This document shows positions 19,238 to 45,421 of a stretch of 64,000 nucleotides of DNA, piece by piece. Numbering within the stretch: the first letter of the stretch is position 1; every line of letters begins with the position of its first letter. A program made the translations under genes and the position numbers. Below the pieces are notes generated by a model. It was not told the origin of the DNA, did not search any database, and was given only the letters and a program-made list of their open reading frames with translations. This stretch comes from a virus, in IMG/VR virus record IMGVR_UViG_3300020478_000004, positions 1 through 64,000 of that record; one strand, 5' to 3'.

Positions 19238-19260
19238 AAATGGACCTAACAAAGAAGAAG

Positions 19261-19268
19261 GATAAATA
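19261..19268 (+). promoter_or_regulatory. T4-type late promoter octamer GATAAATA
   Basis: Lies 29 bases before the ATG at 19290, with TAAGGA as ribosome site. Confidence 0.7.
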
Positions 19269-19289
19269 CAAAGTATAAGGATACAAATT

Positions 19290-20018: not shown

Positions 20019-20032
20019 GGAGAATATAACGA

Positions 20033-20800: not shown

Positions 20801-20812
20801 AGGTTATAAACT

Positions 20813-24117: not shown

Positions 24118-25016
24118 TGAGACGGTTATTCGCATTTGGCTGTTCATTTACAAACTATGCTTGGCCAAGTTATGCAGATTTTTTAAGTTATGAATTTGAC
24201 AAATATGAAAATTGGGGCTTCCCTGGTTTTGGTAATAGAGCCATAGCAGAACGTGTAGCTGAATGTCACGCAAAAAATAATTTTACTAAAGACGATACAG
24301 TATTAGTTCAATGGACTAGTCATACCCGTAACGATTTTCATACTTTTAAAGAAATAGAATATGATAAAGATCAATTTATTCATGGTTGGTTTAGACCTAC
24401 AAATAAAATAGGTTGGAAAACACAAGGTAATATATTCGGTACAGGTAATTTAGAAAGAAATTATGATCATAAATGGATTGATAATTTCTGGGATGAATAT
24501 AGTTATTTTATGTATAGTATGAATGAAATACTACTTACTCAGGGACTATTAGATTCTACTAATTGTAAATGGCGTATGTTTACTATTAGTGATATGGCAA
24601 AATTAGGAAGTGATACTCCAAGCACAGCAGGCGAACAAATTAAACCATTAGATGAAAATGCTTGGGAAAAAACAGAATTTACTTGTTATCGAGAAACAAT
24701 ATTTGAAGGGAAATATAAAAACAATTGGCTTAAACCTTTAGGACATTTTGCTTGGGATAGGCCAGAAGATGCATACACCTTTAGAGGACCAAACGATCCT
24801 GAACCGTGGCAGGATTTTCATCCAAGTCATAAGCATCATTTTGAATACATGGAAGAAGTTATTCGTCCAAGTTTAGGATTAACAAATTATAATAATACTA
24901 AACAACAAAGTGTATATGAAAGAATTACAAGATTAAAAGAACAACATAACGATTTTATTGGTTTTGAAGAAAGTATAATTCATGATACACCACATAAAGG
25001 ATATATAGGTTTTTAA
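24117..25016 (+). CDS. SGNH/GDSL-like protein
   Basis: A 299-residue protein that starts with GTG, overlapping the preceding stop by one base (TAGTG). The N-terminal strand and turn LFAFGCSFTNYAWPSYADFL is the GDSL/SGNH block I variant seen in many phage and polysaccharide genes, followed by NWGFPGFGNRAIAERV (block II G) and VLVQWTSHTRNDF (block III N region). A late H (HPSHKHH) could supply the catalytic histidine. Such proteins often deacylate or acylate surface sugars. Its place between a glycosyltransferase and a carbamoyltransferase supports glycan modification. Catalysis is not proven. Confidence 0.55.
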   Translation: MRRLFAFGCSFTNYAWPSYADFLSYEFDKYENWGFPGFGNRAIAERVAECHAKNNFTKDDTVLVQWTSHTRNDFHTFKEIEYDKDQFIHGWFRPTNKIGWKTQGNIFGTGNLERNYDHKWIDNFWDEYSYFMYSMNEILLTQGLLDSTNCKWRMFTISDMAKLGSDTPSTAGEQIKPLDENAWEKTEFTCYRETIFEGKYKNNWLKPLGHFAWDRPEDAYTFRGPNDPEPWQDFHPSHKHHFEYMEEVIRPSLGLTNYNNTKQQSVYERITRLKEQHNDFIGFEESIIHDTPHKGYIGF

Positions 25017-28402: not shown

Positions 28403-31400
28403 ATGGCTAAAACAAAAGTAGAACAATATGTATTTCAACCAGGTATTCCACTTAAAGATAATCGCTATCATATGGCGTATGACTTAATTAAGAATAATGT
28501 TGAATTTATATGTGATGAAGTCATAGGATATATTGCTACACAAGTTGCCGCAACTCCAACATATCCAAATGCTGTTAGTATAATCACAGCAAATAAAGAA
28601 TTTTTAAAAGACGAAGTAATGGCTTGGTTTGATATTGCTTATCCTGGAGCACACACAGCCGACAGACACGCAAAATGTGAAAGAGATACAGGATATAATA
28701 TTGACGCAATTATATTTGATATTGACAACGGCGGTAATTCAAAAACTATAGAATATGCAAAAAAATACTGGGAAGGTACAAACTCAAACCTTGCTAATTC
28801 GAGCGAACAAAACTATGCTACTTTAGTTAATAATAAATTAGAAGAAATTATTAATGGGTACATTCTTACTAATACTGCTTGGCCAACTGCACAAAGTCCT
28901 GTTGTTACAACACAAACAATGGGTTCAGGTGAAGCAGGTGCAGACACTAGAGTAACATACTTAAAAGGTATTTTTAATGATGTTACTGTAAACGGATTAT
29001 CTGCTATTCCTTCACTGGCTCCTTCTTGGGCAGGCTATACATATGATAGTGTAAAATGTGAAAGAGATACAAGATATAATTTACAAGGACTTGATGGCGA
29101 CGGCGGAATTCTTTATGATTTAAGATATGGTGGTAACGAACAAACACGTTTCAATGCTAGTAAGTATTGGATTAATTCAACTCCACAAGTTGATGGAGAT
29201 AGAACTCCTGAAATATTTGCTAAAAACTTTGTACGTGATTTAATTAATAATTATATTTTACCACAAACAACTTATCCAACTACACAGAGTCCAGTTGTAA
29301 CAACGCAATATAAAAATGCCGCATCAACGGCAGAATCAGAAGCTCCTGGTATCGTAACTGATAGATTTGGTATTATTACTGATGTACTTTTAAATGGGCT
29401 AGATAATGTTCCTGCATTAGATAGAGCTAAAATTAGTTCTGTTAAAATGCAAACTCGTGTACCAACAAATGACTTATTGTTAATTACTGATACAACTGTT
29501 AATGAAGTATTGTTTAACTTTACAGATCCTGACAAAGGTGCAAGTGTTAAGTATACAACAGATGAAGAGAAATTAACTAAAGGTGTTGAAGATGATTTTC
29601 CAAAGTTCTTAGAAAGAACTGGAACTATTACTACTGTCTTCTTAGATGTAAACACAGATTCACCTACATACTATCCTAAGTCAATTGTTCAATTAGAAGC
29701 AAATAAATCCTTCTTACAAAAAGAAACTACGGCTTGGATAGCTGATAAAATTGCAAATGCCACTACATATCCTGATGCTAAAACATTAATAGACGCGAAC
29801 AAAGAATGGTTAGCAGATGAAGTTATGGCTTGGTTTGATTTAACATACCCAGGTGTGCATAATACTACTCAACATGAAAAATGTGAACGAGATACAAAAT
29901 ATAATATAGATGCAATTGCATATGATATTTTACATGGTAGTAATACAGAAACTATTAGAGTTGCAAAAAAATATTGGGAAGGTGCAGTTTCACAACTTAC
30001 AAATAAAGGTGGTAGATTTTCTAGCACTACAGAAAATGAAATTAACTATGCGGTTGCTGTTAATAATAAATTAAGAGACTTAATTGTTAATAACGTATTA
30101 ACTAATACAGTTTATGTAACACAACAAAGTCCAATTGTTACAGTACAAACTACTAATTCTACAAACGGTGAAGCAAAAGCAATTTCTAGAATACCTGAAT
30201 TAGTTGGAATCTTTACTAGTGTTATTGAAAACGGATTATCAGTAATACCTAGTGCAATTCCTTCTTGGGATGATTATACTTATAATGCACCAAAATGTGA
30301 AAGAGATATTGATTATCAAATTGATGCACTTATTAATGATTTAAAATGGGGCGGCAATGCAAAAACTATAGAAAATGCTGAAAAATATTGGGTGCAAACA
30401 ATTCCACAAATAGATGGAGATCGTTCACACGAAATATATGCTAAAGATTTTACTAGACGGTTAATTAACGACTATGTTCTTCCAAACGTTTCTTGGACTA
30501 CATTACAATCAAGTAATCCAGTTGCTCAAGTAACTTGGTATGCGGCTGGTGAAACAGGTACTAATACAAGAGTAAGCGAATTATTTAAAATTATTAATGA
30601 TGTTATTGACAACGGAACTGATGTATTACCTGTTAAAGACGAACCTCAAACGTTTGCTAATACAGACGAACTTCAAATATTTATTGACCAAGGTGATTTA
30701 AAAGTTAGACCATATGACTTTGGTACAGATGCTATTGAACGTCAACGTGTTGCACAGGCTCAATCAATGCTTGATGCTGACTTTGAATATGGACTACAGC
30801 CTACGAAGTGGCAAGCGATTGCTACACAAAGAGGTTATCCATCAATTTACGAAGTACCAGGTACTGACAAACAAGTTAGTACAGTTGTAACAGATGCTTC
30901 AAATGGAACAGGTGGTATTGGTCAATCATTAATTACTGTTACTACAATTGGTGCTCATAGTATTGAAGCAGGATCACCGATTACAATTAAGGCATTAGAA
31001 AATTCAGTAGCAGGGGCAAGTAGAGCAGAAGGATCGTTTATTGTTTCAACAGTACCTACTAATAACACATTCACATATTTTGCAAAATCAAAAGTTGGTA
31101 CAGCTAACGGACAAGTACTTTCAACGTTTTATACACAATTACGACAAGCAGGATTTTATACAGGTGCCTCAATTGGTAACCCAACGTTTACTATTTTATC
31201 ACAAGGTGCGGCAGGAGTACTATACAATCCATTAGCGGCATTAAGTGGTGCAGATAAACTTACTTTCCAGGGAGATACACCAGAAGTTGGTGCTCCGATT
31301 TTAGTTGAAACAGGAGTTGCGACAGCAATCTATACATACTCGGCGGCAGATGCTTTACGAACAGCAGGAACTTATAATAATGTTGTTGGTACATCAAGTA

Positions 31401-34400
31401 GCGTAGCACCAGACTTAATTGTTCCAACTTGTAACATTACAGTTGACGGAACAGGTGCCGCAATAGCAACAATTGTAACTGGTGGAAGACGTAATGCTAT
31501 TAATGATACAATAACAGTTGCAGATAGTTTATTAGGTAGTGGTGGAGCGGCGCCCTTAACATTTAAAATTCAAACGGTTAGAGATAATTCTGCCGCAGTA
31601 CCATCAGGTGCTCAAGTTACATCAACACTAGGTACAGGTGGTCCTATACAAACACTTCAAACATCTTCGGATGTCGCAAGTGGATCTAACGTAATTCCAG
31701 TTACTAATACAGCAGGTGTACTAACAGGACATGGTATTGATAGAGGTGACGGCACAGCGGTATTTGTAAGTAGTGTTGTCGGAAATAATATTAACTTAGA
31801 TGGAAATACTGCGGGTACAATTATTGGTAACGTAGTGAATTATCCAAATGTTGCAGGAACAAATTATATATCAAGTGGATTTGGTGGAACATTTGATATT
31901 TCTAGAGCTAGTGGAACTTATACTGTTACTATTAATAACGATGGTGACGATTATGAGACTGGAGATGTTATTGTAGTTTTAGGTAATGCCTTAGGAGGTA
32001 CTACTCCTGAACATGATTGTAGAATTGAAATTACAGAAGCAGATACTAGCGGAGATATAATTACAATTAATGCAACAGGAACAGCATTTGATGGTAATGC
32101 TTCCTACTCAGGACTAACAGGTACAAATACTAACGGTGTTGGTACGGGTGCATTGTTTGATATTTCATATACAAATAATACGTATAGTGTAAGTTTAGCA
32201 CAGCCAAGTTATACAAATGTTTCAGGAACAAATCTAGGTGGAACTGGATCAGGTGCACACTTTGATATTACTTTGTCAAATAATACATATACAGTTGCTC
32301 TTAATGCCGGTGATGCAAGTACAGGATATACAGTTGGCGATAGAATTAAAATTGACGGTGCTACATTAGGTGGAACAAGTGCTACACATGATGCCGTAGT
32401 TGCTGTTTCATCTGTTAATGGTTCCGGTGGAATAACAGGACAAACTGTTACAGGTACGGCAGTAGATGCAGATGTAAGTTATCCAAACGTAACATATACT
32501 ACAACATCTATTGGTGGTACAACTGCAAATATTACTGTTAGAAGAGTAGGTACTACTTATGAAGTTAATGTTGTTGGAGGCGGTTCAGGTTACTCAGCAA
32601 CAGAAACATTAAGCGTTTTAGGAACAGATGTAGGTGGAGCATCTCCGGCTAATGATGCAACAATTACTATTGATGCTGTTGGTGGATCAGGTGAAATTAC
32701 AACAGCTAGTATTACAGGTACTGCGGTTAATACTCAACTGTATGCAGACATCACTAGTGGTGTCAACCAATTAGGTAGCTCAGCAATATTTGATGTCACT
32801 GTAAATTATAATAATACATATACAGTTACTATAGGAAATACTGGCGGTGTTAATTACGGCGTTGATCAAAAAATTACTCTAGCAGGAACATCATTTAGTA
32901 ACGGATTAAGCCCAGCTAATGATATAACAATTACTATTACAAGTGTTAATCCTACTGGATTAATAACAGGAATTACTCATACTGGTACATCTGCAGATGC
33001 AACAACGAACTATGTAATTGGGGATAGATTATCAGTTTTAGGTAGTATTGTTGGCGGTGTTGATACAACGAATGATGCTATAATTAATGTTACAGGTGTT
33101 AATAGCGGAGTAATTACAAATTTAACAATTAGTGGTGCGGCCCCAGATGCGACAGAAACTTATGTTAATCCAGTTTACACTACAAATACAGCTGGTGGTA
33201 CTAACGCATCATTTACCGTTACAAGATTAGACATAGCTTATTCGGCACTAATTACTGTTCCAGGTACAGGATATTTAACTGGTGAAACATTTACAATTGA
33301 CGGTGCATTACTAGGTGGTTCAACAACAACAAATGATTGTACAATTGAAGTTGCAAGTATCGGTGGTAGTGGTGAAATATTAACAGTTAACGTAACTGGT
33401 ACAGCATTAGACCAAAAAACTTATTATGGTATAAGCCAAGAGGCTGGACAAGCTGTTATGAAAATCGGGGCAGGTGCTACTTGGGACGTTACATTAAGTG
33501 GTGGTGTTTATACACCATCTAATGCAAACCCAGGTACTGATTATAATGCAACGCAAGAAATTATAATTAATGGTAACCAATTAGGTGGAACATCTCCAAC
33601 TAATGATTTAACACTTACAATTACCGGCGTTACAGGAACAGGAGCAATTTCTACATTTACTCATAGTGGTACTGCACCTGGTGGAACTGCATCTTATACT
33701 GATGTTGGAGGAACTAATTTAACTAACACAGGTGCTGGTGCAACATTTGATGTTATACGAAGCACCGGAACTTATAGTTCCTTTACTATAAACTTAGATG
33801 GTGGCAACTATGTAGTTGGAAACAAAATTAAAATTTTAGGATCACAATTAGGCGGAGTTGATGTTACTAACGATCTTATTCTTACTATTACTGGTGCTAC
33901 AACAGATGGTAGTATCAGTAGTGTTTCAGGATTAGGAACAGCTATTACAGGAACAGTTGTTAAAACGTATTCAACTGTAACCATGTCAGAACAATTATTA
34001 CAAGCACTTCCGGCACTTGAAACTGAAGCGTTTGCGGCATTGGCAACTGTAGAAGTTACATTTACTAGTGCTCACGGACTTGTTCCTGGAGATTCATTTA
34101 TTTCAACAATAGCTAGTGATAGTGGCGCAAATAATCACACACTTTGTGAAGGACCATTCTTTGCACAGCAAATTCCAAGTAATACAAAACTTAGATACCA
34201 GTGCAGAGCTCCTGGTACAATTACCGATGTTAATGATATTATAGGCGATATTTATCCAAGACCAGATTCGTTCTTTGTACATAGACCATATGACGGTGGT
34301 GTTATGCTAGGAACAGGTGGACCACAACATGGATCACAAGCAATACGTCAAAGTAAAAAATACATTAGATATCAGTCAGGTAAAGGTATCATGTATACAA

Positions 34401-36685
34401 CTGGTGCCTTATTTGCACCAAGTTATGACTTACTTGATGTTACAGCAGATGGAACAACTGCTGGGTCATTTATTACTGTTACTACAGATGATGTTGATCA
34501 CGGATTACAAATTGGTGGACGTATTAGATTAATAGGAATCGAAACTCCAGGTTATAATGGTGATTATACAGTTTCACAAATTACAACAGAGCGTACTTTT
34601 AAAGTTATTGCGGCAACACAATTAGGAAATCAAGCACCAACGTTAAGTGCAAGAGCACAAATTTCATTACTTAAATGGCATGGTGCAACTGTTCGTTCAG
34701 GAGCATTTGACGACCAAAACGGAATCTTTATGGAATACGATGGTGAAAACTTTACTTGTGTTCAACGTACTGCAACATTACAATTAGCAGGTACAGTAAG
34801 TATGAACGTTGATAGTAACACTTGTAGCGGTATAGGAACACGATTTAGAGATCAATTAAAAGCAGGTGATAGAATTGTTATTAAAGGAATGACTCATGTT
34901 GTTTCTGAAGTTGAAAATGATACAACAATGTATCTTACACCTGACTTCCGCGGTGTAACTCCAGCGTCAGCTTGTAAAATATGTTTAGTTAGTGATAAGA
35001 AAACTAAACAAAACGAATTTAACAAAGATACACTTGATGGTACTGGTAGTAGTGGATATATTTTAGATGTTTCTAAAATGCAGATGATGGGAATTCAATA
35101 CAGTTGGTACGGAGCAGGATTTATTGACTATATGTTACGTGGTGACGACGGTAACTTTATTTTCTTCCATAGAATGAGAAATAGTAATGTAAACACAGAA
35201 GCATTTATGCGTACTGGTAATATGCCAGTTAGATATGAAATTACTAACGAAGGTCCAACAGGTAAACTTGCGGCAGATATTGATTATGCACAAACTACTA
35301 TTCCATTAGTAGATGCAAAATACTTTCCATCAGCAGGAACAATATATATTGATGGTGAGATGATTTCTTATACTGGTATTACTGGAGATACATTAACTGG
35401 GGCAACTAGGGCGGCACCTATGTCAAACTATGCATCAGGAGCCAACAGAACATATACAGCTGGACCGGCCGCGGCTCATTTAGCAAAAACGGGTGTACCA
35501 TTAATTAGTAATACTATATCACCAATCATATCACATTGGGGATCAGCATTCTTAACAGATGGTGGATTTGATAGTGATCGTGGTTACATTTTCTCATATG
35601 CTTCAACTGGTAACGAAATTAGTACAACAAGAAATACAGTTTTCATGCTTAGACTAGCACCTAGTGTATCTAATGCTATTGTTGGTGACTTAGGTGAACG
35701 TGAACTACTTAATAGAGCCCAGTTGCTACTTGAAGGTATTGAAGTTACATCAGATACAAGTACAGGTGGTATCGTTATTGAGGGTGTATTAAATCCACAA
35801 AACTATCCAATTGATCCAAGTAACGTTGGTTGGAGCGGATTATCCGGACTAGCGGCAGGTGGTCAACCTAGTTTTGCACAGATTGCCCCGGGTGGATCTG
35901 TTACATGGAGTACAGGTGCTACACAGGTTGTTAGAAATGCAACGACAACTGCACAATTGTCAGCATCAGCTAATTCCTTGTATAATAGATGGAGTACTAC
36001 ATGGCATTACTTTTCAACAAGTGAATGGGATAGTTTAAATGACGAAGTAGAATCTGGGACAGAAATTATTGCAACAGGAAATCCGGCTACAGGAACTTCA
36101 GACTTTCCAGCAGGAACAACGATTTTTGATATCTATGTAGAATCTTGGTATAACAGGGTACGTATTAGAACTACTAATAGAAACACAGGTCAAATTACTG
36201 CTGGCGAATCAATTACATTTGGTATTGGTGGTGATTTAGCTTATACTAACTACTTGTACTTTACAAGAACATCTTGGGAATCCACTGGTGCCGTTGCAGG
36301 TACAGAAGTAAGTGATAATAAGTTCCCGGCGGGTACTGCGGTATCAAAAGTTGAAGGACCAAAAACATTTGGTGCAACAGAATACTACAAAGTAACATTT
36401 TCACAAACGTCAATTGCAAATATTACAGCTGGTTCAACTGTAGGATTCTTATTTGGACAACCACCGTATGCACAACCAGGTGAAACTGTATTTTCATTCA
36501 TTGCAAATCCAGGTAGTCTTGCAAATCTAGACTTAGGTGGATTGAAAGAGTTAACAAATACTACATTAGGTGGACGAGGAACATATCCAAACGGACCTGA
36601 TGTATTAGCAATTAACGTTTATAAAACGTCAGGTGCGGCTGTTAATGCAAACTTAATCCTTAGATGGGGCGAAGCTCAAGCCTAA
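28403..36685 (+). CDS. giant modular virion protein with tandem beta-module array
   Basis: At 2760 residues this is the largest gene in the window. Residues ~40-720 hold four KCERD modules (KCERD.xYNIDA...D...GGN..T...A.KYW), centred near residues 92, 218, 494 and 632. Residues ~979-1856 contain one diverged and about eight further beta modules of ~88 residues (SY..V.GTN...GA.FDVT...YTV, GYxVGD.I.I.G..LGG..P.ND, ITGVTGTG.I); two units look partial. The last ~900 residues are non-repetitive, with a GLVPGDSF-type segment, WHGATVRSGAFDDQNGIF and a fibre-like end (NVYKTSGAAVNANLILRWGE). Probably a long adhesin or tail appendage. Its stop overlaps the stop region of the opposing oxygenase gene by four bases. 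Confidence 0.8.
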   Translation: MAKTKVEQYVFQPGIPLKDNRYHMAYDLIKNNVEFICDEVIGYIATQVAATPTYPNAVSIITANKEFLKDEVMAWFDIAYPGAHTADRHAKCERDTGYNIDAIIFDIDNGGNSKTIEYAKKYWEGTNSNLANSSEQNYATLVNNKLEEIINGYILTNTAWPTAQSPVVTTQTMGSGEAGADTRVTYLKGIFNDVTVNGLSAIPSLAPSWAGYTYDSVKCERDTRYNLQGLDGDGGILYDLRYGGNEQTRFNASKYWINSTPQVDGDRTPEIFAKNFVRDLINNYILPQTTYPTTQSPVVTTQYKNAASTAESEAPGIVTDRFGIITDVLLNGLDNVPALDRAKISSVKMQTRVPTNDLLLITDTTVNEVLFNFTDPDKGASVKYTTDEEKLTKGVEDDFPKFLERTGTITTVFLDVNTDSPTYYPKSIVQLEANKSFLQKETTAWIADKIANATTYPDAKTLIDANKEWLADEVMAWFDLTYPGVHNTTQHEKCERDTKYNIDAIAYDILHGSNTETIRVAKKYWEGAVSQLTNKGGRFSSTTENEINYAVAVNNKLRDLIVNNVLTNTVYVTQQSPIVTVQTTNSTNGEAKAISRIPELVGIFTSVIENGLSVIPSAIPSWDDYTYNAPKCERDIDYQIDALINDLKWGGNAKTIENAEKYWVQTIPQIDGDRSHEIYAKDFTRRLINDYVLPNVSWTTLQSSNPVAQVTWYAAGETGTNTRVSELFKIINDVIDNGTDVLPVKDEPQTFANTDELQIFIDQGDLKVRPYDFGTDAIERQRVAQAQSMLDADFEYGLQPTKWQAIATQRGYPSIYEVPGTDKQVSTVVTDASNGTGGIGQSLITVTTIGAHSIEAGSPITIKALENSVAGASRAEGSFIVSTVPTNNTFTYFAKSKVGTANGQVLSTFYTQLRQAGFYTGASIGNPTFTILSQGAAGVLYNPLAALSGADKLTFQGDTPEVGAPILVETGVATAIYTYSAADALRTAGTYNNVVGTSSSVAPDLIVPTCNITVDGTGAAIATIVTGGRRNAINDTITVADSLLGSGGAAPLTFKIQTVRDNSAAVPSGAQVTSTLGTGGPIQTLQTSSDVASGSNVIPVTNTAGVLTGHGIDRGDGTAVFVSSVVGNNINLDGNTAGTIIGNVVNYPNVAGTNYISSGFGGTFDISRASGTYTVTINNDGDDYETGDVIVVLGNALGGTTPEHDCRIEITEADTSGDIITINATGTAFDGNASYSGLTGTNTNGVGTGALFDISYTNNTYSVSLAQPSYTNVSGTNLGGTGSGAHFDITLSNNTYTVALNAGDASTGYTVGDRIKIDGATLGGTSATHDAVVAVSSVNGSGGITGQTVTGTAVDADVSYPNVTYTTTSIGGTTANITVRRVGTTYEVNVVGGGSGYSATETLSVLGTDVGGASPANDATITIDAVGGSGEITTASITGTAVNTQLYADITSGVNQLGSSAIFDVTVNYNNTYTVTIGNTGGVNYGVDQKITLAGTSFSNGLSPANDITITITSVNPTGLITGITHTGTSADATTNYVIGDRLSVLGSIVGGVDTTNDAIINVTGVNSGVITNLTISGAAPDATETYVNPVYTTNTAGGTNASFTVTRLDIAYSALITVPGTGYLTGETFTIDGALLGGSTTTNDCTIEVASIGGSGEILTVNVTGTALDQKTYYGISQEAGQAVMKIGAGATWDVTLSGGVYTPSNANPGTDYNATQEIIINGNQLGGTSPTNDLTLTITGVTGTGAISTFTHSGTAPGGTASYTDVGGTNLTNTGAGATFDVIRSTGTYSSFTINLDGGNYVVGNKIKILGSQLGGVDVTNDLILTITGATTDGSISSVSGLGTAITGTVVKTYSTVTMSEQLLQALPALETEAFAALATVEVTFTSAHGLVPGDSFISTIASDSGANNHTLCEGPFFAQQIPSNTKLRYQCRAPGTITDVNDIIGDIYPRPDSFFVHRPYDGGVMLGTGGPQHGSQAIRQSKKYIRYQSGKGIMYTTGALFAPSYDLLDVTADGTTAGSFITVTTDDVDHGLQIGGRIRLIGIETPGYNGDYTVSQITTERTFKVIAATQLGNQAPTLSARAQISLLKWHGATVRSGAFDDQNGIFMEYDGENFTCVQRTATLQLAGTVSMNVDSNTCSGIGTRFRDQLKAGDRIVIKGMTHVVSEVENDTTMYLTPDFRGVTPASACKICLVSDKKTKQNEFNKDTLDGTGSSGYILDVSKMQMMGIQYSWYGAGFIDYMLRGDDGNFIFFHRMRNSNVNTEAFMRTGNMPVRYEITNEGPTGKLAADIDYAQTTIPLVDAKYFPSAGTIYIDGEMISYTGITGDTLTGATRAAPMSNYASGANRTYTAGPAAAHLAKTGVPLISNTISPIISHWGSAFLTDGGFDSDRGYIFSYASTGNEISTTRNTVFMLRLAPSVSNAIVGDLGERELLNRAQLLLEGIEVTSDTSTGGIVIEGVLNPQNYPIDPSNVGWSGLSGLAAGGQPSFAQIAPGGSVTWSTGATQVVRNATTTAQLSASANSLYNRWSTTWHYFSTSEWDSLNDEVESGTEIIATGNPATGTSDFPAGTTIFDIYVESWYNRVRIRTTNRNTGQITAGESITFGIGGDLAYTNYLYFTRTSWESTGAVAGTEVSDNKFPAGTAVSKVEGPKTFGATEYYKVTFSQTSIANITAGSTVGFLFGQPPYAQPGETVFSFIANPGSLANLDLGGLKELTNTTLGGRGTYPNGPDVLAINVYKTSGAAVNANLILRWGEAQA
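31833..33960 (+). repeat. tandem ~88-residue GYxVGD/LGG beta modules
   Basis: About eight in-frame units, each containing aromatic-T-V strands, G-Y-x-x-G-D, LGG and ND..I.I landmarks. The unit beginning near TTNYVIGDRL is shortened to ~50 residues, and one near 32,190 has a duplicated first half. This pattern fits unequal recombination between units. Confidence 0.75.
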
Positions 36686-37272
36686 AAGTTGAACGCTATT
36701 GTTGTGCGTTCTACACCTTTCTTACTCGGCAATACTTGATGTTTTAAATAAGAAGGAAACATTAAAATTCTTCCTTTTACAGCGTTATGAATATTCCCCT
36801 GCCAAGAAAAAACAGCATTAGGATTATAATCTTGTGAATATTCAGTGAATGGATTAGGGTTTCTAAACATTAATCCACCGGCGGCGTTATTAGCTCTAAC
36901 CCAATAAATTCCTGAAATACGTCCTATACCATGTTCATGCTCGTTATGAACATCACCTTCAATATAGTCTTGACACCAATATTCAAATTCATTTTTATTA
37001 GTTTGTAATTGTCGATTAATTGCTTTAAAATTATTACCTTCTTGATATGCGTCTTTACATTGTTTTAATTCTAACCATAATCCAGGAAGATCTTTTGGTA
37101 AGTCTGGAATTATTTTTTCAGGTTCAAAATAATCAGTTGAGTGCGGTGCAGGACCTTCTCGCGAAGGCATTTTATCAAGTTTACTAACTACAAATTTTTC
37201 TACTTCGTCAGCAAGATCTTGTGGGACATCATGTACTAGTAATCCAATTGGAAATAATGGTTCTATATGCAT
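36682..37272 (-). CDS. 2OG-Fe(II) oxygenase-like protein
   Basis: A 196-residue protein. Its C-terminal half matches the phage-type 2OG-Fe(II) oxygenase pattern: W..DYIEGDVHNEHEHG (metal ligands likely H109 and E111), SGIYWVRA, GGLMFRNP, GRILMFPSYLKHQV (distal H178) and ERTTIAFNF (R189 for 2-oxoglutarate). Such enzymes hydroxylate proteins or small molecules; they are frequent in marine T4-like phages and their substrates are unknown. It is the last gene of the leftward operon, starting inside the cupin stop codon (TAATG). Confidence 0.75.
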   Translation of the reverse strand: MHIEPLFPIGLLVHDVPQDLADEVEKFVVSKLDKMPSREGPAPHSTDYFEPEKIIPDLPKDLPGLWLELKQCKDAYQEGNNFKAINRQLQTNKNEFEYWCQDYIEGDVHNEHEHGIGRISGIYWVRANNAAGGLMFRNPNPFTEYSQDYNPNAVFSWQGNIHNAVKGRILMFPSYLKHQVLPSKKGVERTTIAFNF

Positions 37273-37727
37273 TAATCATCACTTAATTCTACTTTAGTAT
37301 CACCGATACTTGGAGCATTAATAGATTGTTCAGCTTCAGTTTTTGCCTGTTGTTTTTCTGCTTCTTGACTGTCACCTGGAATAACTCTATAATTATCACT
37401 AATTGAATCAGCTGTACTAACTTCAGTTATACTACTACCTGCTTCTTGACAAATTAATTGATGTGGTTGTAAAGGAGGATTGTGCCACGTCATTCCTGTT
37501 GTTAATTCTTTTTGAAGAAGTGAAGCAGTTTTAGTATCAATCCAAAGTAATTGAAATTTCCCATTATTTACAAACCAAGTTTCGTCTTTTTCTTTATGAA
37601 AATGCATTGAGAATTTTGCACCAACTTTATCAAAAACTAAAATTTTGCCACAGTACTTGTCAGTAGAAGCCCATATTACTTCATAACCCCAACCTTTTTC
37701 TACTTTTCCATGTAATCTATCTGTCAT
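37272..37727 (-). CDS. cupin protein (sugar-related)
   Basis: A 151-residue protein with a single cupin domain. HGKVEKGWGYEVIWA leads into FSMHFHKEKDETWFVNNG (His, His, Glu metal ligands) and later WHNPPLQPHQLI (the second-motif His). The opening resembles the mannose-6-phosphate isomerase type II cupins that accompany sugar-nucleotide enzymes. The last ~35 residues are acidic and Gln-rich without a fold. It overlaps hldD by four bases (ATGA), so it is cotranslated with the heptose genes. An isomerase or epimerase role on a sugar phosphate is possible but not demonstrated. Confidence 0.65.
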   Translation of the reverse strand: MTDRLHGKVEKGWGYEVIWASTDKYCGKILVFDKVGAKFSMHFHKEKDETWFVNNGKFQLLWIDTKTASLLQKELTTGMTWHNPPLQPHQLICQEAGSSITEVSTADSISDNYRVIPGDSQEAEKQQAKTEAEQSINAPSIGDTKVELSDD

Positions 37728-38536
37728 AAAACAAATTCCTCTACTGTTCTAAATTTATGTTCCCCTATAGTACTATTTAATTTTTCTATATTTGCTTGTG
37801 TATAATACTGATATTGATTTTTTAGTTTATCTGGAATTGGAATTTCAATAACTTCTGCCGACCATTTTTTAGCTACTAATTGAGCTATATAATCAAATGA
37901 ATTTGCTTTTCCTGTACCAACATTCCATATATCTGTTGCATCTATAGTTAAAAATTTTTCCAAAATTTCGCATACATCTCCAATATGAATAAAGTCTCGG
38001 AAAATTTCTTTACTACCTTTAAATACTTTAATTTTTCCAGTTTCAATTGCTTGTTTTTTAAATTTATGAAAAACGCTCATCTGCTCACCTTTATGTTCTT
38101 CTCCAGGACCATAAACATTAAAAAATCTAAAACCTTGAACATTAATTTGATATTCGTTTACTGAATGAACAAATCTATCAAACAAATATTTGCTCCAAGC
38201 GTATGGTGATTGTGGATCTACAGGTGAGTTTTCTTTAAATTCTTTTCCTTGTCCATACACACTGGCACTAGATGCATACATAAATGTTGTTCCAAAAGTA
38301 TCACATAGTTCTAACATTTTAATACTAAATTCATAATTCTGTTTTAAAATTTTATCAACGTCTTTTTCAGTTGTATCACTAATCGCTCCTAAATGAATTA
38401 CTCTATCATATTCTTTTGGATCAGGAAAACGTCCGTCTATATAATCATAACCTTCTACTTCATGGCCTTTGTGAACAAGATATGGTGCTAAATTTTTACC
38501 TATAAATCCGTTTGAACCTGTAACTAAAATTCTCAT
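37724..38536 (-). CDS. hldD: ADP-L-glycero-D-manno-heptose 6-epimerase
   Basis: A 270-residue extended short-chain dehydrogenase. It has the NAD(P) motif GSNGFIG (7-13), HLGAISDTTEKDVD (typical of HldD), the catalytic Y112-x3-K116 in YAWSKYLFDRFV, SSASVYG at ~89-95 and the family signature FRFFNVYGPGEEHKG (136-150). HldD converts ADP-D-glycero- to ADP-L-glycero-beta-D-manno-heptose in lipopolysaccharide core synthesis. Bacterial forms are ~310 residues; this one is shorter at the C-terminus. It overlaps both neighbours by four bases and lies two genes from hldE, strongly supporting a shared pathway. Confidence 0.88.
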   Translation of the reverse strand: MRILVTGSNGFIGKNLAPYLVHKGHEVEGYDYIDGRFPDPKEYDRVIHLGAISDTTEKDVDKILKQNYEFSIKMLELCDTFGTTFMYASSASVYGQGKEFKENSPVDPQSPYAWSKYLFDRFVHSVNEYQINVQGFRFFNVYGPGEEHKGEQMSVFHKFKKQAIETGKIKVFKGSKEIFRDFIHIGDVCEILEKFLTIDATDIWNVGTGKANSFDYIAQLVAKKWSAEVIEIPIPDKLKNQYQYYTQANIEKLNSTIGEHKFRTVEEFVL

Positions 38537-39246
38537 ATTTTTTCAAACCTTATATTATTTGGTTCTATTTTAATCCAACACATACCGCTTTGGCCTGTAT
38601 TATGTATATCGTGTTTTCTTATTGTTGTTAAAGAAAATTTATGGTCTTCAACAAATTGTTTTGCATAACCTTCTTGTTTTGCTGTAAAAATACTTTCTTT
38701 ATGAAAATATTGCATTATAGATTTAGGTATCCTCTTGTCATTTAACATATCAATTAAGAGTTTTATATAATAAAATCCTTCATCATAACTGCACAATCCG
38801 TCTATAAAAATAGATGAATAATTATTCATACTATATAAGCCCCAAGCTATTAATTGATCAATTACTTTAACATCTCTATCAAAATCAGAAAAAACACAAT
38901 CAACATTATTCATTAGCTTAAAGTCTATGTCTTGGTTTAATAAAGTAAAATGATCTTGTATTTCTAATTTTTCAACTGTAGAATTAATAAACTCTGAATA
39001 AGATTTACCACCTTCATTACAAGGATGACCATACTGCCGACCATTATCAATAGTTATACAGTTACCTATTCCATTTTCTTTCATTGCGTATGCAACTGCA
39101 AATGAAGTACAACCTAAACCAGTTCCAAACTCTACAAAAGTTTTATATTTTTTCATTTTTGTTAATGCATAAAAAAATAATGAACTATCTTCAGTATTAT
39201 ATGCTATTCCGTGCTCTTTTATGTATGTTAATAAGTCTTGGTTCAT
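38533..39246 (-). CDS. class I SAM-dependent methyltransferase
   Basis: A 237-residue protein. Motif I is FVEFGTGLGCTSFAVAYA (~38-55), followed by an acidic strand end (CITIDNG) and VDCVFSDFD, as in Rossmann-type methyltransferases. The C-terminal half has SIFIDGLCSYDEGFYYIKLL and ends near TGQSGMCWIKIEP. It lies between hldE and hldD with four-base overlaps on both sides, so it probably methylates a sugar or nucleotide-sugar intermediate or the final glycan; the acceptor is not deducible. Confidence 0.65.
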   Translation of the reverse strand: MNQDLLTYIKEHGIAYNTEDSSLFFYALTKMKKYKTFVEFGTGLGCTSFAVAYAMKENGIGNCITIDNGRQYGHPCNEGGKSYSEFINSTVEKLEIQDHFTLLNQDIDFKLMNNVDCVFSDFDRDVKVIDQLIAWGLYSMNNYSSIFIDGLCSYDEGFYYIKLLIDMLNDKRIPKSIMQYFHKESIFTAKQEGYAKQFVEDHKFSLTTIRKHDIHNTGQSGMCWIKIEPNNIRFEKI

Positions 39247-40499
39247 TGTTTAATCTTCTTTATTAAATCTGTTGTTGAATGTCCTTTTATTCTAGGAAAT
39301 ATAACAACATTAGCTAATTCATTTCCTACAGTAGTTTCAACAGTATAATCATCACCTTTTACAATAACATCAGGATTGATTTTTTTGATAATATCTATTG
39401 GTGTATCTTCATCAAAAATGATAACCTCATCTATAAATCCTAATGCTTCTAATGTTTCTTTTCTTTTAACTTCATTATTAATGGGTCTATTTTCGCCTTT
39501 AAGACGTCTAACACTTGCATCACTATTAATACCCACCACAAGACGTTTTCCTAACGTGTGTGCGTGTCTTAGTAGCTTTAAATGGCCAGTATGTAGTATA
39601 TCAAACACTCCATTAGTCCATACTATACCACGATTTAAATCATCAAGTGTAACTGGAGATACACCACGCTTTTCTACAGTTCTAGTTGCGGCATAACAAG
39701 CAAGTTCACACGCTTTAGGAATATCTATTCCCTTATTATAAGCATGAACAATAACTGCTAATACTGTATCACCAGCACCTGATACATCGGCTACTTCTTT
39801 TGTATCTTCTTTAAAATAATGATACTCTCCGTCTGTATTTAAAACATGAATACCATTAGCACCATCAGTTACGACTAACCATGTCCAGTTATGGTCTCGC
39901 ATATATTCTAATGCATGAGTTTTATTATATTTTCCATTCCATTGTTCGTATTCTAGCATATTAGGTTTAACCAAAAATGCTCCATCATAAAATCTTGCAT
40001 CTTGTTTAGGATCTACAAATATTTTTACATCTGCAAACTCTTTTATATCACTAATAGTATCTTCTGTAACAGTTCCTTTTCCATAATCACTAACAACTAT
40101 TATATTAGAACTTCTTATAGATGCTTTTAACCTATTAAGTGCTTCATGACTTTTAATTGCTACTACTTCTCTGTCCCAACGTAAAAGATGTTGCCCTGTT
40201 TTTCCTACTAATCTTGTTTTAATAGTTGTTCTAGGTGCATCCTTAGATAAATTACTAACTATATTAGTCTTTTCTAATAAATGAAGTATATGAATACCTT
40301 GTGTATCTTTTCCTATTACTCCATATAATTCTACACGATTATTAATGTTCGCTAAATTAATTGCTAAATTGGCGGCACCACCTAAATTGAACTTTTGTTG
40401 TTCTTCTTTTAATATTAAAACATCTGCTTCTGGCGATACCCTACTAGCATCACCGATGATCCAACGATCCAACATTATATCGCCATAAACTTTAATCAT
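39243..40499 (-). CDS. hldE: bifunctional heptose-7-P kinase / heptose-1-P adenylyltransferase
   Basis: A 418-residue two-domain protein in HldE (RfaE) order. Residues 1-~285 form a PfkB-type sugar kinase with GGAANLAINLANI (40-52), RWDRE and the catalytic DVSGAGDT (238-245). Residues ~290-418 are a nucleotidyltransferase with NGVFDILHTGH (296-306), GINSDASVRRLKGENRPIN and VKGDDYT. Together they make ADP-D-glycero-beta-D-manno-heptose from the 7-phosphate, except for the GmhB phosphatase step. E. coli HldE is 477 residues, so this is compact but complete in motifs. Starts and stops overlap its neighbours by four bases. Confidence 0.92.
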   Translation of the reverse strand: MIKVYGDIMLDRWIIGDASRVSPEADVLILKEEQQKFNLGGAANLAINLANINNRVELYGVIGKDTQGIHILHLLEKTNIVSNLSKDAPRTTIKTRLVGKTGQHLLRWDREVVAIKSHEALNRLKASIRSSNIIVVSDYGKGTVTEDTISDIKEFADVKIFVDPKQDARFYDGAFLVKPNMLEYEQWNGKYNKTHALEYMRDHNWTWLVVTDGANGIHVLNTDGEYHYFKEDTKEVADVSGAGDTVLAVIVHAYNKGIDIPKACELACYAATRTVEKRGVSPVTLDDLNRGIVWTNGVFDILHTGHLKLLRHAHTLGKRLVVGINSDASVRRLKGENRPINNEVKRKETLEALGFIDEVIIFDEDTPIDIIKKINPDVIVKGDDYTVETTVGNELANVVIFPRIKGHSTTDLIKKIKQ

Positions 40500-40936
40500 T
40501 TTTGTTCCATTAATGATACTAGTTTAAAGACTGTTTCTAGTTTTGTTAAATTTGCTTTATTTTGTAATGTATTACGTAAACCTTGGTGCAATGGTTTAGG
40601 CCAATTATTGAAACTTACCCAAGCATATCCATTATGTTCTTCGTTTAATTTTGGAATAAATTCTTCTTTTACTACACAAAGATATGTGTGAAAATTAAAT
40701 TTGTCATCCCTACTAACAAACGTTTCTAAAGGAATAGACTTTATTATATCAGGAATAAACCCAATTTCTTCTTTGATTTCTCGTTGTAATGCTTGGAATG
40801 GAATTTCTTCACTTTCATTAGTACCACCTACAAGACCCCAAACATTATTTTGTTTACTTTGAACCCTATGCAAAAATAAAAATCTTTGAGTATCTAATGT
40901 GTAGAAGAGAGCACCACTACATATTATATTAGTCAT
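40496..40936 (-). CDS. Nudix hydrolase
   Basis: A 146-residue protein with a full Nudix box from G38 to F60 (GG.NESEEIPFQALQREIKEE, then IGF), preceded by LFLHRVQSK and WGLVGG. These resemble GDP-mannose or nucleoside-diphosphate-sugar hydrolases that act on X-linked nucleoside diphosphates. It lies between tail gene gp15 (13 bases upstream) and hldE (four-base overlap), so a sugar-nucleotide or cofactor substrate is plausible. It could not be assigned the missing GmhB phosphatase step from sequence alone. Confidence 0.8.
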   Translation of the reverse strand: MTNIICSGALFYTLDTQRFLFLHRVQSKQNNVWGLVGGTNESEEIPFQALQREIKEEIGFIPDIIKSIPLETFVSRDDKFNFHTYLCVVKEEFIPKLNEEHNGYAWVSFNNWPKPLHQGLRNTLQNKANLTKLETVFKLVSLMEQK

Positions 40937-40949
40937 ACTAATAATTATG

Positions 40950-42404
40950 TTAAAGTGCTAGGCGCCAAGTGCCTTTTCGATATTCGCCTTCGAAGCTTAA
41001 TGTCCAAGATGTACCGTCCCATTTATATTGGATACCGGTATTAAGATTGGTTGTATACTTGACATCTATAGTTGAATCAGAGCCATCATTTTGACTAGCG
41101 TCAAAAACTATAGTCCAAGCATTATTATCCCATTCAATTATATCGTTTGTTGATGCAATCAAATCGTTGCCACTAACATCTTTCCAAGCATCTGCACCGT
41201 CTACATTAGTAGTTGCACCAATATCACCTAATAATAAAATCCTAGTTCCACTTTGTTTAATATCTGTAGGATTAGTTCTTGTTGGGTCAATGATATAATC
41301 AATAGTGCCTTTAGTAACTGCTGGTCCTTCAAATACAGAGTTAGTTGGAATTGTGTCTGTATCCCAGTTTACAATAAGTTGTGTTTCGTCTAACTCGTTA
41401 AGTGCAATAGTTCCTACAACACTACCTAAGTCTAATCTATTTAAATAAATTTTACTTAACCCTGCAACATATTGTCCAGGTAATGCATCTAAAACTACAC
41501 GCCAATTAACTTCACCTGCAACACCTCTATCACCTAATACAGCAATATTATTAGTTACTATTAAGTCGTAATCTTTATACGTACTAATTGCTAGTGCTGT
41601 AGCATCGGCTCTAGTTGCTGTAGCTGTTTTATCATGTTTAGTACTTGTGTTATCATCACCTTTAACATCTTGTGATTCACTATCATCATAACGTTTAAGT
41701 TCAGGTTGCGAAGATCCTAAATCAATTGTACCTTTAGTTTCATCAAAAATACTCATTACAACACTTGTTATAACTCCTAGCTTTTTAACTTTAGCAGGAG
41801 GTGATAACCAAATGGGAGTCATGAAAGATAATTGGCCGACATCAATCTCACTTTCTGTACCCATAGGAATACTTCTAGTAGAAAACGTAACATTTTCTAA
41901 ATTTACTACACTTAAACTTGTCCAATCAACGTAGTTATCAGTTGTTTGAATTTCTAAACTTGGATTAAACAATGTTAATATTTGCTCTATTATTTGTAAC
42001 TTTTGTTCTGTATTAGTTGACCAAATATCTACATTAATACCTAAATTAAACGGAGTAGGCATTAAACGTTCTACTGTATAGTTTTGTCCTTGCGTATTTA
42101 AATATTCTTTATTATTACTGTCATATGCACGTTCACGTAAATGAATTTTTCCTGTATAGGTCGCATCAGATGTTCTCTCTCTGTCCATTGCTAATGATGT
42201 AATATAAACAGATATTCTTGGAGCACTAGGTATTTTATTTTCACTATTATCACGTATGATATGTCCTACTTGACGAGTAATGTCGCCATACATCACCGGT
42301 ATTTGTGTTAAATTACCTTTGCCATCCTTATAAGAAAAGTTACTAAACAATCTTATAAGTTGAGTAATGTAACGTCTTATTTGTCCGTCATAAAAATGTT
42401 GCAT
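40950..42404 (-). CDS. gp15: tail sheath stabiliser/completion protein gp15-like
   Basis: A 484-residue protein. Its N-terminal ~260 residues match T4 gp15: FYDGQIRRYITQLIRLFSNF, IPVMYGD, then RISVYITSLAMDRER, TPFNLGINVDIWSTNTEQKL, QIIEQILTLFNPSLEIQT and a PIWLSPP strand. gp15 caps the tail tube and sheath and connects to the neck. T4 gp15 has about 270 residues; here a ~220-residue extension follows that looks like two small beta domains (DLIVTNNIAVLGDRGVAGEV; RILLLGDIGATTNVDGADAW). It starts inside the stop of gp14 and precedes the sugar genes on the same strand. Confidence 0.75.
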   Translation of the reverse strand: MQHFYDGQIRRYITQLIRLFSNFSYKDGKGNLTQIPVMYGDITRQVGHIIRDNSENKIPSAPRISVYITSLAMDRERTSDATYTGKIHLRERAYDSNNKEYLNTQGQNYTVERLMPTPFNLGINVDIWSTNTEQKLQIIEQILTLFNPSLEIQTTDNYVDWTSLSVVNLENVTFSTRSIPMGTESEIDVGQLSFMTPIWLSPPAKVKKLGVITSVVMSIFDETKGTIDLGSSQPELKRYDDSESQDVKGDDNTSTKHDKTATATRADATALAISTYKDYDLIVTNNIAVLGDRGVAGEVNWRVVLDALPGQYVAGLSKIYLNRLDLGSVVGTIALNELDETQLIVNWDTDTIPTNSVFEGPAVTKGTIDYIIDPTRTNPTDIKQSGTRILLLGDIGATTNVDGADAWKDVSGNDLIASTNDIIEWDNNAWTIVFDASQNDGSDSTIDVKYTTNLNTGIQYKWDGTSWTLSFEGEYRKGTWRLAL

Positions 42405-43561
42405 TAGTTATCTGCCCTTGGTTTCAATGCTTTAGACAAAGGTTGACGTTCTTTAACAGTTTCGCCGCCTATTACATTTTCTTTAGTATTATTAATAAAT
42501 GATCCTTTATATGTAGCTTTGTCATCAGTATTAGTTAATGTCATACGTACTGCATCTTCCATTTTAATCCACCTTGTTCCATCAAACCTAAATAATCTAT
42601 TAGGTAAGAAATCTGTTCTTAAGAAGTAATCACCTTTAATATTAGTAGCTGGAAATCCTATACCATGACCAAATGCTTCACCATTAGGTGCAATTCCATC
42701 ACCTAATAAGTATCCATCATATCCGCTTCGTTCAGGTGTTTGATTAACCCTATCAGCTAATAGTCCGGCCTGTGAAGCATCTAATGTATCAACGTCTGTT
42801 GTAACAAGTTCAGGTTTACCTTGTTTATCAACTTGTAATGTATATAATTGTTGTGTTTCGTATCCTGACTTTTTAGCATCTGCTTCTGCTTGTTGAACAA
42901 CTGCATTATTAATTTGCATTTCTTGTTCATAAGTTGACAATACATCACGTAATGTATCAGAAGAACCTTCTTCTGCTGGTAAGTCAAGTATTTCTTTAAA
43001 CTCTTGACTATCTACTATTTGTTTTAATTTTACACGATATAAATGCGGATACCAAGTTTGGCTAAATCCTTCTGCCGCTCTGTTAACATCTTCAACTACA
43101 TAATAACGTTTTAATGCAACTTGATAATCATTAAGTGCGTGTGGATCTTTTAAGTGTGGTAGTTCTATTACATCACCTGACATAATTTTTCTACCTAATG
43201 TTTTTACACTATCATTAATATGAATAGTCATAAACAATGTATCATTTTGTAAAAATAATCCAAATTGACTCATATCAAAGTCAATGTCTTGCACGTTATA
43301 AATTCCTCTAATTTGATAAATGTCAGGATCATATTTTCTATCCCTATTTTCAAGGAATAGCATATCCTGTATATTTGTTTCTTTTATAGCATCGTATCTT
43401 GGTTTGTCAGCCGTAGCATCTGCTTCTTCAGGATTTACAGGTCCTAAATACTTGTGAACAAATACGTCAGTTCCGCCCACTTGGAACATTTCACCGATAT
43501 GTCTGTCTAAAAAGACGTAATCATTACCGTGTTCTGGTTTATATAGTGTAAGTTTAGGCAT
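42404..43561 (-). CDS. gp14: neck protein gp14-like
   Basis: A 385-residue protein; T4 gp14 has 256. Recognisable gp14-like features are the early metal-free beta part (GGTDVFVHKYLGP), a DMLFLENRDRKYDPDIYQIR region, DFDMSQFGLFLQND and a GDVIELPHLKDP segment followed by YYVVEDVNRAAEGFSQTWYP. The C-terminal third (DGYLLGDGIAPNGEAFGHGI, FLPNRLFRFDGTRWIKMED) is extra. Assignment is supported by gp15 directly downstream and gp13 directly opposite. Late promoter 43570-43577 would place the RNA start about three bases before its ATG. Confidence 0.7.
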   Translation of the reverse strand: MPKLTLYKPEHGNDYVFLDRHIGEMFQVGGTDVFVHKYLGPVNPEEADATADKPRYDAIKETNIQDMLFLENRDRKYDPDIYQIRGIYNVQDIDFDMSQFGLFLQNDTLFMTIHINDSVKTLGRKIMSGDVIELPHLKDPHALNDYQVALKRYYVVEDVNRAAEGFSQTWYPHLYRVKLKQIVDSQEFKEILDLPAEEGSSDTLRDVLSTYEQEMQINNAVVQQAEADAKKSGYETQQLYTLQVDKQGKPELVTTDVDTLDASQAGLLADRVNQTPERSGYDGYLLGDGIAPNGEAFGHGIGFPATNIKGDYFLRTDFLPNRLFRFDGTRWIKMEDAVRMTLTNTDDKATYKGSFINNTKENVIGGETVKERQPLSKALKPRADN

Positions 43562-43569
43562 CGTAACAG

Positions 43570-43577
43570 TATTTATT
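43570..43577 (-). promoter_or_regulatory. leftward T4-type late promoter (AATAAATA)
   Basis: Reads AATAAATA on the minus strand, 16 bases before the gp14 start codon. It lies 15 bases from the rightward octamer for gp13, giving a compact divergent late-promoter pair that probably drives the whole gp14-to-oxygenase operon. Confidence 0.65.
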
Positions 43578-43591
43578 CGATGCCGCTTCCC

Positions 43592-43599
43592 GATAAATA
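43592..43599 (+). promoter_or_regulatory. T4-type late promoter octamer GATAAATA
   Basis: Lies 27 bases before the gp13 ATG at 43619, with GGAGAG as ribosome site. Confidence 0.7.
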
Positions 43600-43618
43600 C
43601 ATATGGAGAGCATATAAT

Positions 43619-44444: not shown

Positions 44445-45038
44445 ATGGTAATTGGAATTTGTGGGCTTATTAGCTCAGGCAAAGATACAATAGCAGATTA
44501 TTTAATTAAAGAGCATAATTTCGTAAAAATCTCATTTGCAGATAAGTTAAAAGATAGCGTAGCCGCTATGTTTGATTGGGATCGCGAATTGCTTGACGGT
44601 AAAACTGCTGAAAGCAGAGAATGGCGCGAAAAAGTAGACTCATATTGGACTAATGAAATAGGTAGCGAAATTACACCTAGACTAGTACTACAAAAATTTG
44701 GTACAGAGTGTATGCGTAATGGATTTTATGATGGTATATGGGTTAGCTTAACTAAAAAGAAAATACTAGATAATCCTGATATTAATTATGTTATTCCAGA
44801 TACACGTTTCCCAAATGAAGCCAAAATGTTATATGAAATTAACGGGCAAGTTTGGAGAGTAGTACGTGGTGAAGATCCACAGTGGTTTACAGATTATAAG
44901 GATTTTGGTACAGAACCTAAAGATGTACACCCTAGCGAATGGGCTTGGGCACACACAAAATTTAAACATATTATTAACAATAATGGGACTATTGACGAAC
45001 TTAAAAGTCAGGTACAAGGTCTCCTTGTTTCCAAGTAA
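44445..45038 (+). CDS. gp1: deoxynucleoside monophosphate kinase (gp1-like)
   Basis: A 197-residue protein from ATG 44445; the in-frame ATG at 44430 overlaps the GAGGA ribosome site, so the second is preferred. The P-loop is GLISSGKDTIADYL (starting at residue 7), followed by SFADKLKDSVAAMFDWDREL, a W.EKVDSYW lid-like region, GTECMRNGFYDGIW and VIPDTRFPNEA. This matches T4 gp1-type dNMP kinases, which phosphorylate dTMP, dGMP and modified dCMP for phage DNA synthesis. It is driven by a consensus sigma-70 promoter, unlike its late neighbours. Its last 38 bases overlap the opposing gene at 45001. Confidence 0.85.
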   Translation: MVIGICGLISSGKDTIADYLIKEHNFVKISFADKLKDSVAAMFDWDRELLDGKTAESREWREKVDSYWTNEIGSEITPRLVLQKFGTECMRNGFYDGIWVSLTKKKILDNPDINYVIPDTRFPNEAKMLYEINGQVWRVVRGEDPQWFTDYKDFGTEPKDVHPSEWAWAHTKFKHIINNNGTIDELKSQVQGLLVSK

Positions 45039-45339
45039 CACCTTCTTTATATAAAATCTTACTACAGTTTGCACAAACAGTTTTTAAGTTTGATGTACGA
45101 ACATTATTAAGATCTCCATCTATATAATAAACATGAAATTGCTCGCTATGTTTACTACGAAAGTTACATTTATCGCAAGTATTCTTTTTAAGATAGCCAG
45201 CTAACTCATACTTTGATGGTCCACGTTTTTTACCTCCATGCTTGGCACAGTTCTCACAAAGGCTTCTATAATAAGGTACGCCTTCCTTATAATAATTAAT
45301 TGCTACCGGCTTTTTACCGCATTTGCATAAAGGTCTCAT
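45001..45339 (-). CDS. four-knuckle zinc protein, HNH/endonuclease VII-like
   Basis: A 112-residue protein from ATG 45339; a longer TTG-initiated frame adds nine residues but would start further from the purine-rich AAGGGCAGGGG. Cysteine pairs are CxC 5/7, CxxC 28/31, CxxC 55/58 and CxxC 89/92. The segment VYYIDGDLNNVRTSNLKTVC follows the HNH pattern (hHID...NN...NL..LC..C), but the usual catalytic His is Tyr72 here and the final His of the motif is Ser93. It may bind DNA through zinc without cutting. It is the only leftward gene in this block and overlaps the end of the kinase gene. Confidence 0.65.
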   Translation of the reverse strand: MRPLCKCGKKPVAINYYKEGVPYYRSLCENCAKHGGKKRGPSKYELAGYLKKNTCDKCNFRSKHSEQFHVYYIDGDLNNVRTSNLKTVCANCSKILYKEGVTWKQGDLVPDF

Positions 45340-45421
45340 AATAATATTTACCCCTGCCCTTTTCAAATCCCTTTTGTATCCTAAATTAGCGAATCATTCC
45401 GTGGTGTTTTTTGGTAAATCA

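Follow-up and report, generated by a model that had tools for sequence, protein, structure and literature searches.

A late neck operon with a putative heptose-activation cassette in a marine phage of the T4 superfamily, and its possible role in virion glycosylation

Why should a phage carry genes for adenosine diphosphate (ADP)-heptose enzymes directly behind the genes for its neck? The question is raised by a 64,000-nucleotide stretch of viral DNA (hereafter the window; positions 1 to 64,000 of IMG/VR record IMGVR_UViG_3300020478_000004), whose source record is a viral contig of 108,525 bases and probably a fragment. Heptose genes of marine phages are known, but have been read as a means of changing host lipopolysaccharide (LPS). 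The block of genes at 36682-43561 of the window is best explained as a neck operon of the late class, gp14-gp15-Nudix, to which a heptose-activation cassette has been added, in a marine phage of the T4 superfamily. A late-type promoter, co-occurrence with a GT9-like transferase gene and the linkage of that gene to fibre genes point to virion glycosylation, and we put at about 0.55 the probability that the cassette supplies nucleoside diphosphate (NDP)-heptose late in infection for glycosylation of the phage's own fibre or adhesin during assembly. The question is directly testable.

The eight genes that the original prediction placed in tight array on one strand are all found there, on the minus strand, with gaps of -4 to +13 nucleotides (negative values being overlaps). 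The block opens with a gp14-like neck or head-closure protein of 385 amino acids (42404-43561), which matches phrog_11591, a virion structural protein, at an E value of 2.7e-92 and shares 40% identity with such a protein from Agrobacterium phage Atu_ph07. It is followed by a gp15-like tail sheath stabiliser (40950-42404, 484 amino acids; PF16724, E 1e-25; phrog_11196), a Nudix hydrolase (40496-40936, 146 amino acids; PF00293, E 7.7e-16), an HldE-like fused PfkB kinase and nucleotidyltransferase (39243-40499, 418 amino acids), a Methyltransf_24-type methyltransferase (38533-39246, 237 amino acids), an HldD-like ADP-heptose 6-epimerase (37724-38536, 270 amino acids), a cupin of phrog_7851 (37272-37727) and a 2-oxoglutarate (2OG)-Fe(II) oxygenase (36682-37272, 196 amino acids; PF13759, E 1.1e-15). 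The spacings are -1 for gp14/gp15, +13 for gp15/Nudix, -4 for each of Nudix/HldE, HldE/methyltransferase, methyltransferase/HldD and HldD/cupin, and -1 for cupin/oxygenase. At its far end, the oxygenase gene overlaps by 4 bases a convergent, giant fibre-like open reading frame (ORF) of 2760 amino acids on the plus strand (28403-36685).

This arrangement was compared with 80 IMG/VR loci whose HldE is 57-99% identical to that of the window. Wherever the contig reaches, the order gp14-gp15-Nudix-HldE-HldD-cupin-convergent fibre is kept, with the methyltransferase (between HldE and HldD, and detected in a minority of the loci) and the oxygenase (after the cupin) as optional members. The gp15-Nudix gap is 12-13 nucleotides in 75 of 75 cases, and only in L038, a contig cut 1.1 kb before HldE, was no Nudix gene detectable. 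The median pN/pS (ratio of nonsynonymous to synonymous polymorphism) is 0.45 for HldE, 0.43 for HldD and 0.18 for Nudix; HldE and HldD are thus under purifying selection, which counts in favour of a working cassette. Among isolated phages, those with the closest gp14 and gp15 (32-40% identical) are Atu_ph07, Sinorhizobium phage Phosso and Pseudomonas jumbo phages. Since a Nudix gene also follows gp15 in Pseudomonas phage Cassandra, we group it with the neck genes; a place for it in the heptose route was considered and rejected, as it is a neck-module neighbour in jumbo phages of Pseudomonas too, where the neck region shows no heptose genes, and it is probably not part of that route.

Is the block expressed as one late unit? 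A single ATAAATA (GAATAAATACTG) lies on the minus strand at 43570-43576, 8 bases upstream of the gp14 ATG and within the late-promoter-like motif AATAAATAC (43569-43577), and no further copy was found on the minus strand down to 36682. Back to back with it stands a rightward motif of the same kind for gp13, GATAAATAC (43592-43600, plus strand), and on account of this pair gp13 probably starts at an internal ATG near 43619 rather than at 43580. In 51 of 52 relatives ATAAATA precedes the ATG of gp14 by 12 or 15 nucleotides, the remaining one having CTAAATA, and a TATAAATA-like -10 element just upstream of late genes is a feature of T4-type late promoters, which also depend on the late sigma factor gp55, on gp33 and on the clamp. 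Within 80 homologous operons (461 kb), the word is absent from the coding strand, against 130 copies expected, and is present twice on the other strand, against 145, these expectations being second-order Markov estimates for related loci whose counts are not independent. Inside the genes of this genome it is likewise rarer than in synonymous-codon shuffles (2 vs 7.9 and 0 vs 6.8), while control words of equal composition show no such deficit. Such a pattern speaks for an active promoter element of the late type and for a single late unit, and we infer a single mRNA running from gp14 to the oxygenase gene. A separate early promoter for the sugar genes, for instance one of another type, could exist but is unsupported by the sequence, with sigma-70-like matches within the block not exceeding those in shuffled sequence (30 vs 39); the single leftward late promoter of the original prediction is borne out at this level. 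Over the record as a whole, genes are poor in ATAAATA and its complement, but both are frequent immediately ahead of structural genes.

The two central enzymes carry the features expected of heptose enzymes. The HldE-like protein combines, in one chain, a PfkB kinase domain with the GAGD aspartate and a C-terminal HxGH nucleotidyltransferase domain, and all 79 sequences keep D244 (GAGD), H303 and H306 (HxGH), and S408 and T409 (STT motif), the third STT position being T or S. In the HldD-like protein, which has the serine, Tyr-x3-Lys and EGHKG lysine of the epimerase's SDR fold, Y112, K116 and K149 are conserved in 66 of 66, with K149 matching K178 of the E. coli enzyme. Loss of catalytic residues, named in the original prediction as a finding that would refute it, was thus not seen at any position checked. 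For both proteins, heptose enzymes lead the NCBIfam and PDB matches by a wide margin. Their scores nevertheless fall below the NCBI equivalog cut-offs (HldE domain I, 237.7 vs 345 bits; domain II, 156.2 vs 181.5; HldD against TIGR02197, 236.4 vs 274.6), hence the wording HldE-like and HldD-like. Compared with the HldE and HldD of the Gram-negative LPS inner core, the domains, domain order and catalytic residues are the same, whereas the window versions are viral, shorter, below these cut-offs and without a detected GmhA or HAD phosphatase.

A heptose donor would need a transferase, and the candidate is the protein encoded on the plus strand at 23137-24117 (phrog_8954). Taken alone, this protein matches nothing in Pfam or NCBIfam, and a search of PDB sequences with its family profile found nothing, so that its assignment rests on fold, profile comparison, weak Pfam matches and a motif. 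A single-sequence fold was discarded for its low predicted local distance difference test (pLDDT) score of 32, and a model built with an alignment of 33 relatives (pLDDT 85) was used instead. With this model Foldseek returns GT9 structures first (3tov at 7.5e-10, WaaC, WaaF and TibC), and hhalign aligns the family with E. coli heptosyltransferases at 93%, against 1.9% for an unrelated control. PF01075 is touched at E <= 0.1 by 17 of 33 members, and D228, S229 and H233 of the donor-site motif D-S/T-x3-H are invariant in the family. The modelled fold of the protein, as first predicted, is GT9-like. We write GT9-like, and do not call the protein a member of the GT9 heptosyltransferases, because Arg17 replaces the N-terminal catalytic aspartate; this arginine, also invariant in the family, stands at the position of WaaC Asp13, the proposed catalytic base of that enzyme. 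The match to TibC, an autotransporter heptosyltransferase that places heptose on protein, as is proposed here, reaches 5.7e-7, whereas identity is about 10% and TibC Asp-110, named as a possible catalytic base from its superposition on WaaC (PMC4358343), probably corresponds to Arg17.

The surroundings of the GT9-like gene tie it to fibre genes. Downstream lie a 299-amino-acid protein gene matching nothing in Pfam or PHROG (24117-25016, plus strand) and a Nol-like carbamoyltransferase of 613 amino acids (25018-26859, plus strand; PF16861, 7e-58; PF02543, 5e-27), and upstream, at 18482-21610 on the plus strand, are three Gly/Cys-rich adhesin-like proteins of phrog_4205 (starting at 18482, 20033 and 20813) that are candidate acceptors. 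A carbamoyltransferase and a Gly/Cys-rich fibre-like gene accompany the GT9-like gene in 51 of 51 loci with long flanks, and this fibre linkage is kept even in phages without HldE. Conversely, of 18 records that carry HldE, 17 have the GT9-like gene too; the remaining one, a contig of 54 kb, stops close to the fibre gene and is likely, though not proven, to be truncated. HldE in turn accompanies HldD in 17 of 18 HldD-bearing records. In four loci (L134, L138, L139 and L144), the GT9-like and carbamoyltransferase genes directly follow Nudix, in the slot held here by the heptose genes, an exchange that speaks for a single late modification system comprising both sets of genes. The 299-amino-acid protein begins with FAFGCSFT, reminiscent of SGNH hydrolases, and has a relative in 35 of the 51 GT9-like loci.

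A mechanism that joins these parts would run as follows. HldE would phosphorylate manno-heptose 7-phosphate and then charge the heptose 1-phosphate with a nucleotide, HldD would make the 6-epimer, and the cupin would probably act in the same pathway. The resulting NDP-heptose would be the donor for the GT9-like transferase, with the phage's own fibre or adhesin as the most likely acceptor, modified in the cytoplasm as virions assemble. The methyltransferase and oxygenase would be optional decorators, so that carbamoyl, methyl and hydroxyl groups might be added. Several observations weigh against this proposal. Neither GmhA (SIS-type; TIGR00441, PF13580), sought here and in the other records searched, nor a GmhB-type HAD phosphatase (TIGR01662) was found, although the window's own record is a 108.5-kb fragment. 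Of the 23 records found by way of the GT9-like gene, about half, some of them 165-223 kb long, have no HldE, and the donor in these would therefore come from the host or be a different sugar. The GT9-like search did not return S-T4 and P-TIM68, although both carry parts of HldE, and the Arg17 substitution described above counts on the same side. The near-complete heptose route of the original prediction was thus overstated: kinase, nucleotidyltransferase and epimerase stand, whereas the isomerase and phosphatase were not found and the transferase candidate has arginine for aspartate.

The same enzymes might act late on a host surface glycan (LPS or capsule), which would stop released virions from sticking to debris or exclude other phages; this is the main alternative, though less likely than virion glycosylation. 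Such a role agrees with the WaaC/WaaF-like fold of the GT9-like protein and is the published interpretation of LPS genes, rfaE among them, in the pelagimyophage 'host recognition cluster' (PMC7029224). It would also suit the closest cellular relative found, a single-cell contig of SAR116 (L191) that has, one after another, GT9, HldE (53%), HldD (47%) and HAD-type genes next to NeuB and RmlD, a surface-polysaccharide setting; this match is not proof of host or donor. On the other side, the GT9-like gene lies among the phage's own fibre genes in every long-flanked locus and stays there in phages without HldE, and expression together with structural genes is late for exclusion. A late change to virion or host surface, favoured over early takeover in the original prediction, fits the promoter and the fibre linkage, but the choice between these two targets is a matter of likelihood, with the virion preferred.

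Two further explanations detach the cassette from surface modification or from heptose. That the HldE-like and HldD-like enzymes use another sugar phosphate would be in keeping with their sub-cut-off scores and the missing GmhA, but seems improbable given that heptose enzymes are their best matches by wide margins, that the checked active-site residues are all kept and that the two genes co-occur. Less probable still is a cassette that feeds heptose to cell metabolism, or serves as a decoy or signal in counter-defence, with its place in a structural operon due to chance. NDP-heptoses are signals elsewhere, according to a commentary (PMC11461863), and R403, which the window HldE has at the STTR5 position, might loosen its nucleotide specificity; yet this residue is present in only 10 of 79 sequences, and the rigid linkage to neck genes and near-complete co-occurrence with the GT9-like transferase count against such a role.

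The kind of cassette is already known, since heptose genes have been listed in a cyanophage (PMC7378029), rfaE and glycosyltransferases lie with tail fibres between VrlC and gp14 in the pelagimyophage cluster (PMC7029224), and a commentary describes functional viral heptose enzymes without the phosphatase (PMC11461863). Among cyanophages, cassettes are found in P-SSM2 (genes 304-315) and in the Synechococcus phages S-SSM7, Sf-FS3 and S-CAM1/3. These share with the window Gly/Cys-rich proteins, GT9-like protein, carbamoyltransferase, nucleotidyltransferase, kinase, cupin, HldD and 2OG oxygenase, as well as a position near fibre or gp13/gp14 genes, the cassette of S-SSM7 and Sf-FS3 being directly upstream of gp13-gp14. 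Except for gene 311, homology to P-SSM2 genes 304-314 extends gene by gene, and both the GT9-like protein and the carbamoyltransferase are 46% identical between P-SSM2 and the window. In cyanophages, kinase and nucleotidyltransferase are separate genes with an adjacent HAD-like gene, whereas the window has a fused HldE, no HAD gene found and the cassette after gp14-gp15-Nudix within one operon. The pelagimyophage cluster also has sugar genes and tail fibres adjoining gp14, but late promoters were not found there and the genes were read as modifying the host O-chain (PMC7029224), whereas the sugar genes of the window run in the same direction as gp14 and lie behind a late-type motif. The neck regions of Cassandra, PA5oct and Atu_ph07 have relatives of gp14 and gp15, but no annotated heptose gene. 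What is new here is the co-occurrence of HldE with the GT9-like gene, the location of the latter near fibre and carbamoyltransferase genes, and the tracking of HldE by the cupin. No description linking heptose with cyanophages, P-SSM2, a cupin isomerase or virion glycosylation in this way was found in the literature searched, which is weak evidence of absence.

How, then, might the phage dispense with GmhA? The cupin may replace it, because it tracks HldE perfectly, being present in 22 of 22 HldE-bearing and 0 of 11 HldE-less records, a set that includes five cyanophages chosen for carrying the cassette; the hypothesis comes from this association, and not from homology alone. The H-x-H, E and H metal ligands of cupins are present as H42, H44, E49 and H89 in 62 of 62 sequences, and in 41 of 44 cyanophage-type loci a nucleotidyltransferase, kinase and HAD gene lie near the cupin. 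The Lyx_isomer family is touched by 17 of 23 cupin members (best 0.0011), but other cupins, oxalate decarboxylase for instance, score similarly. A search of 289 genomes from the class to which the SAR116 genome belongs gave no match to the cupin family. The step would convert a ketose to a manno-aldose, as phosphomannose and D-lyxose isomerases do, and kinase, nucleotidyltransferase, HAD and cupin would together cover the four steps of the heptose route. In the case of P-SSM2, PSSM2_311 (7113-7457 of locus L086) and its counterparts are annotated 'phosphoheptose isomerase', but have a DxDGT motif, no SIS-domain match and weak HAD or lipin-type Pfam matches (0.002-0.08), and are likely, though not certain, to be HAD phosphatases. 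Tentatively, and with less confidence than in virion glycosylation itself, we suggest a joint scheme in which heptose is made from sedoheptulose 7-phosphate without GmhA, the cupin is a virus-specific metal-dependent sugar-phosphate isomerase, the cyanophage HAD-like gene replaces GmhB, and the product is placed on virion fibres. If the cupin is the missing isomerase, the textbook pathway has a virus-borne bypass, and the cyanophage annotations 'phosphoheptose isomerase' and 'cysteine dioxygenase' are wrong.

Elsewhere in the window, a second nucleotidyltransferase, fused to a cupin of the mannose-6-phosphate-isomerase type, begins at 61215 and is followed up to 63440 by a TylF methyltransferase and a GT8-like glycosyltransferase; the fusion is kept in several relatives. 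At 45001-45366, a minus-strand ORF of 121 amino acids with several CxxC-like pairs, possibly of the HNH type, overlaps the end of a deoxynucleoside monophosphate (dNMP)-kinase-like gene.

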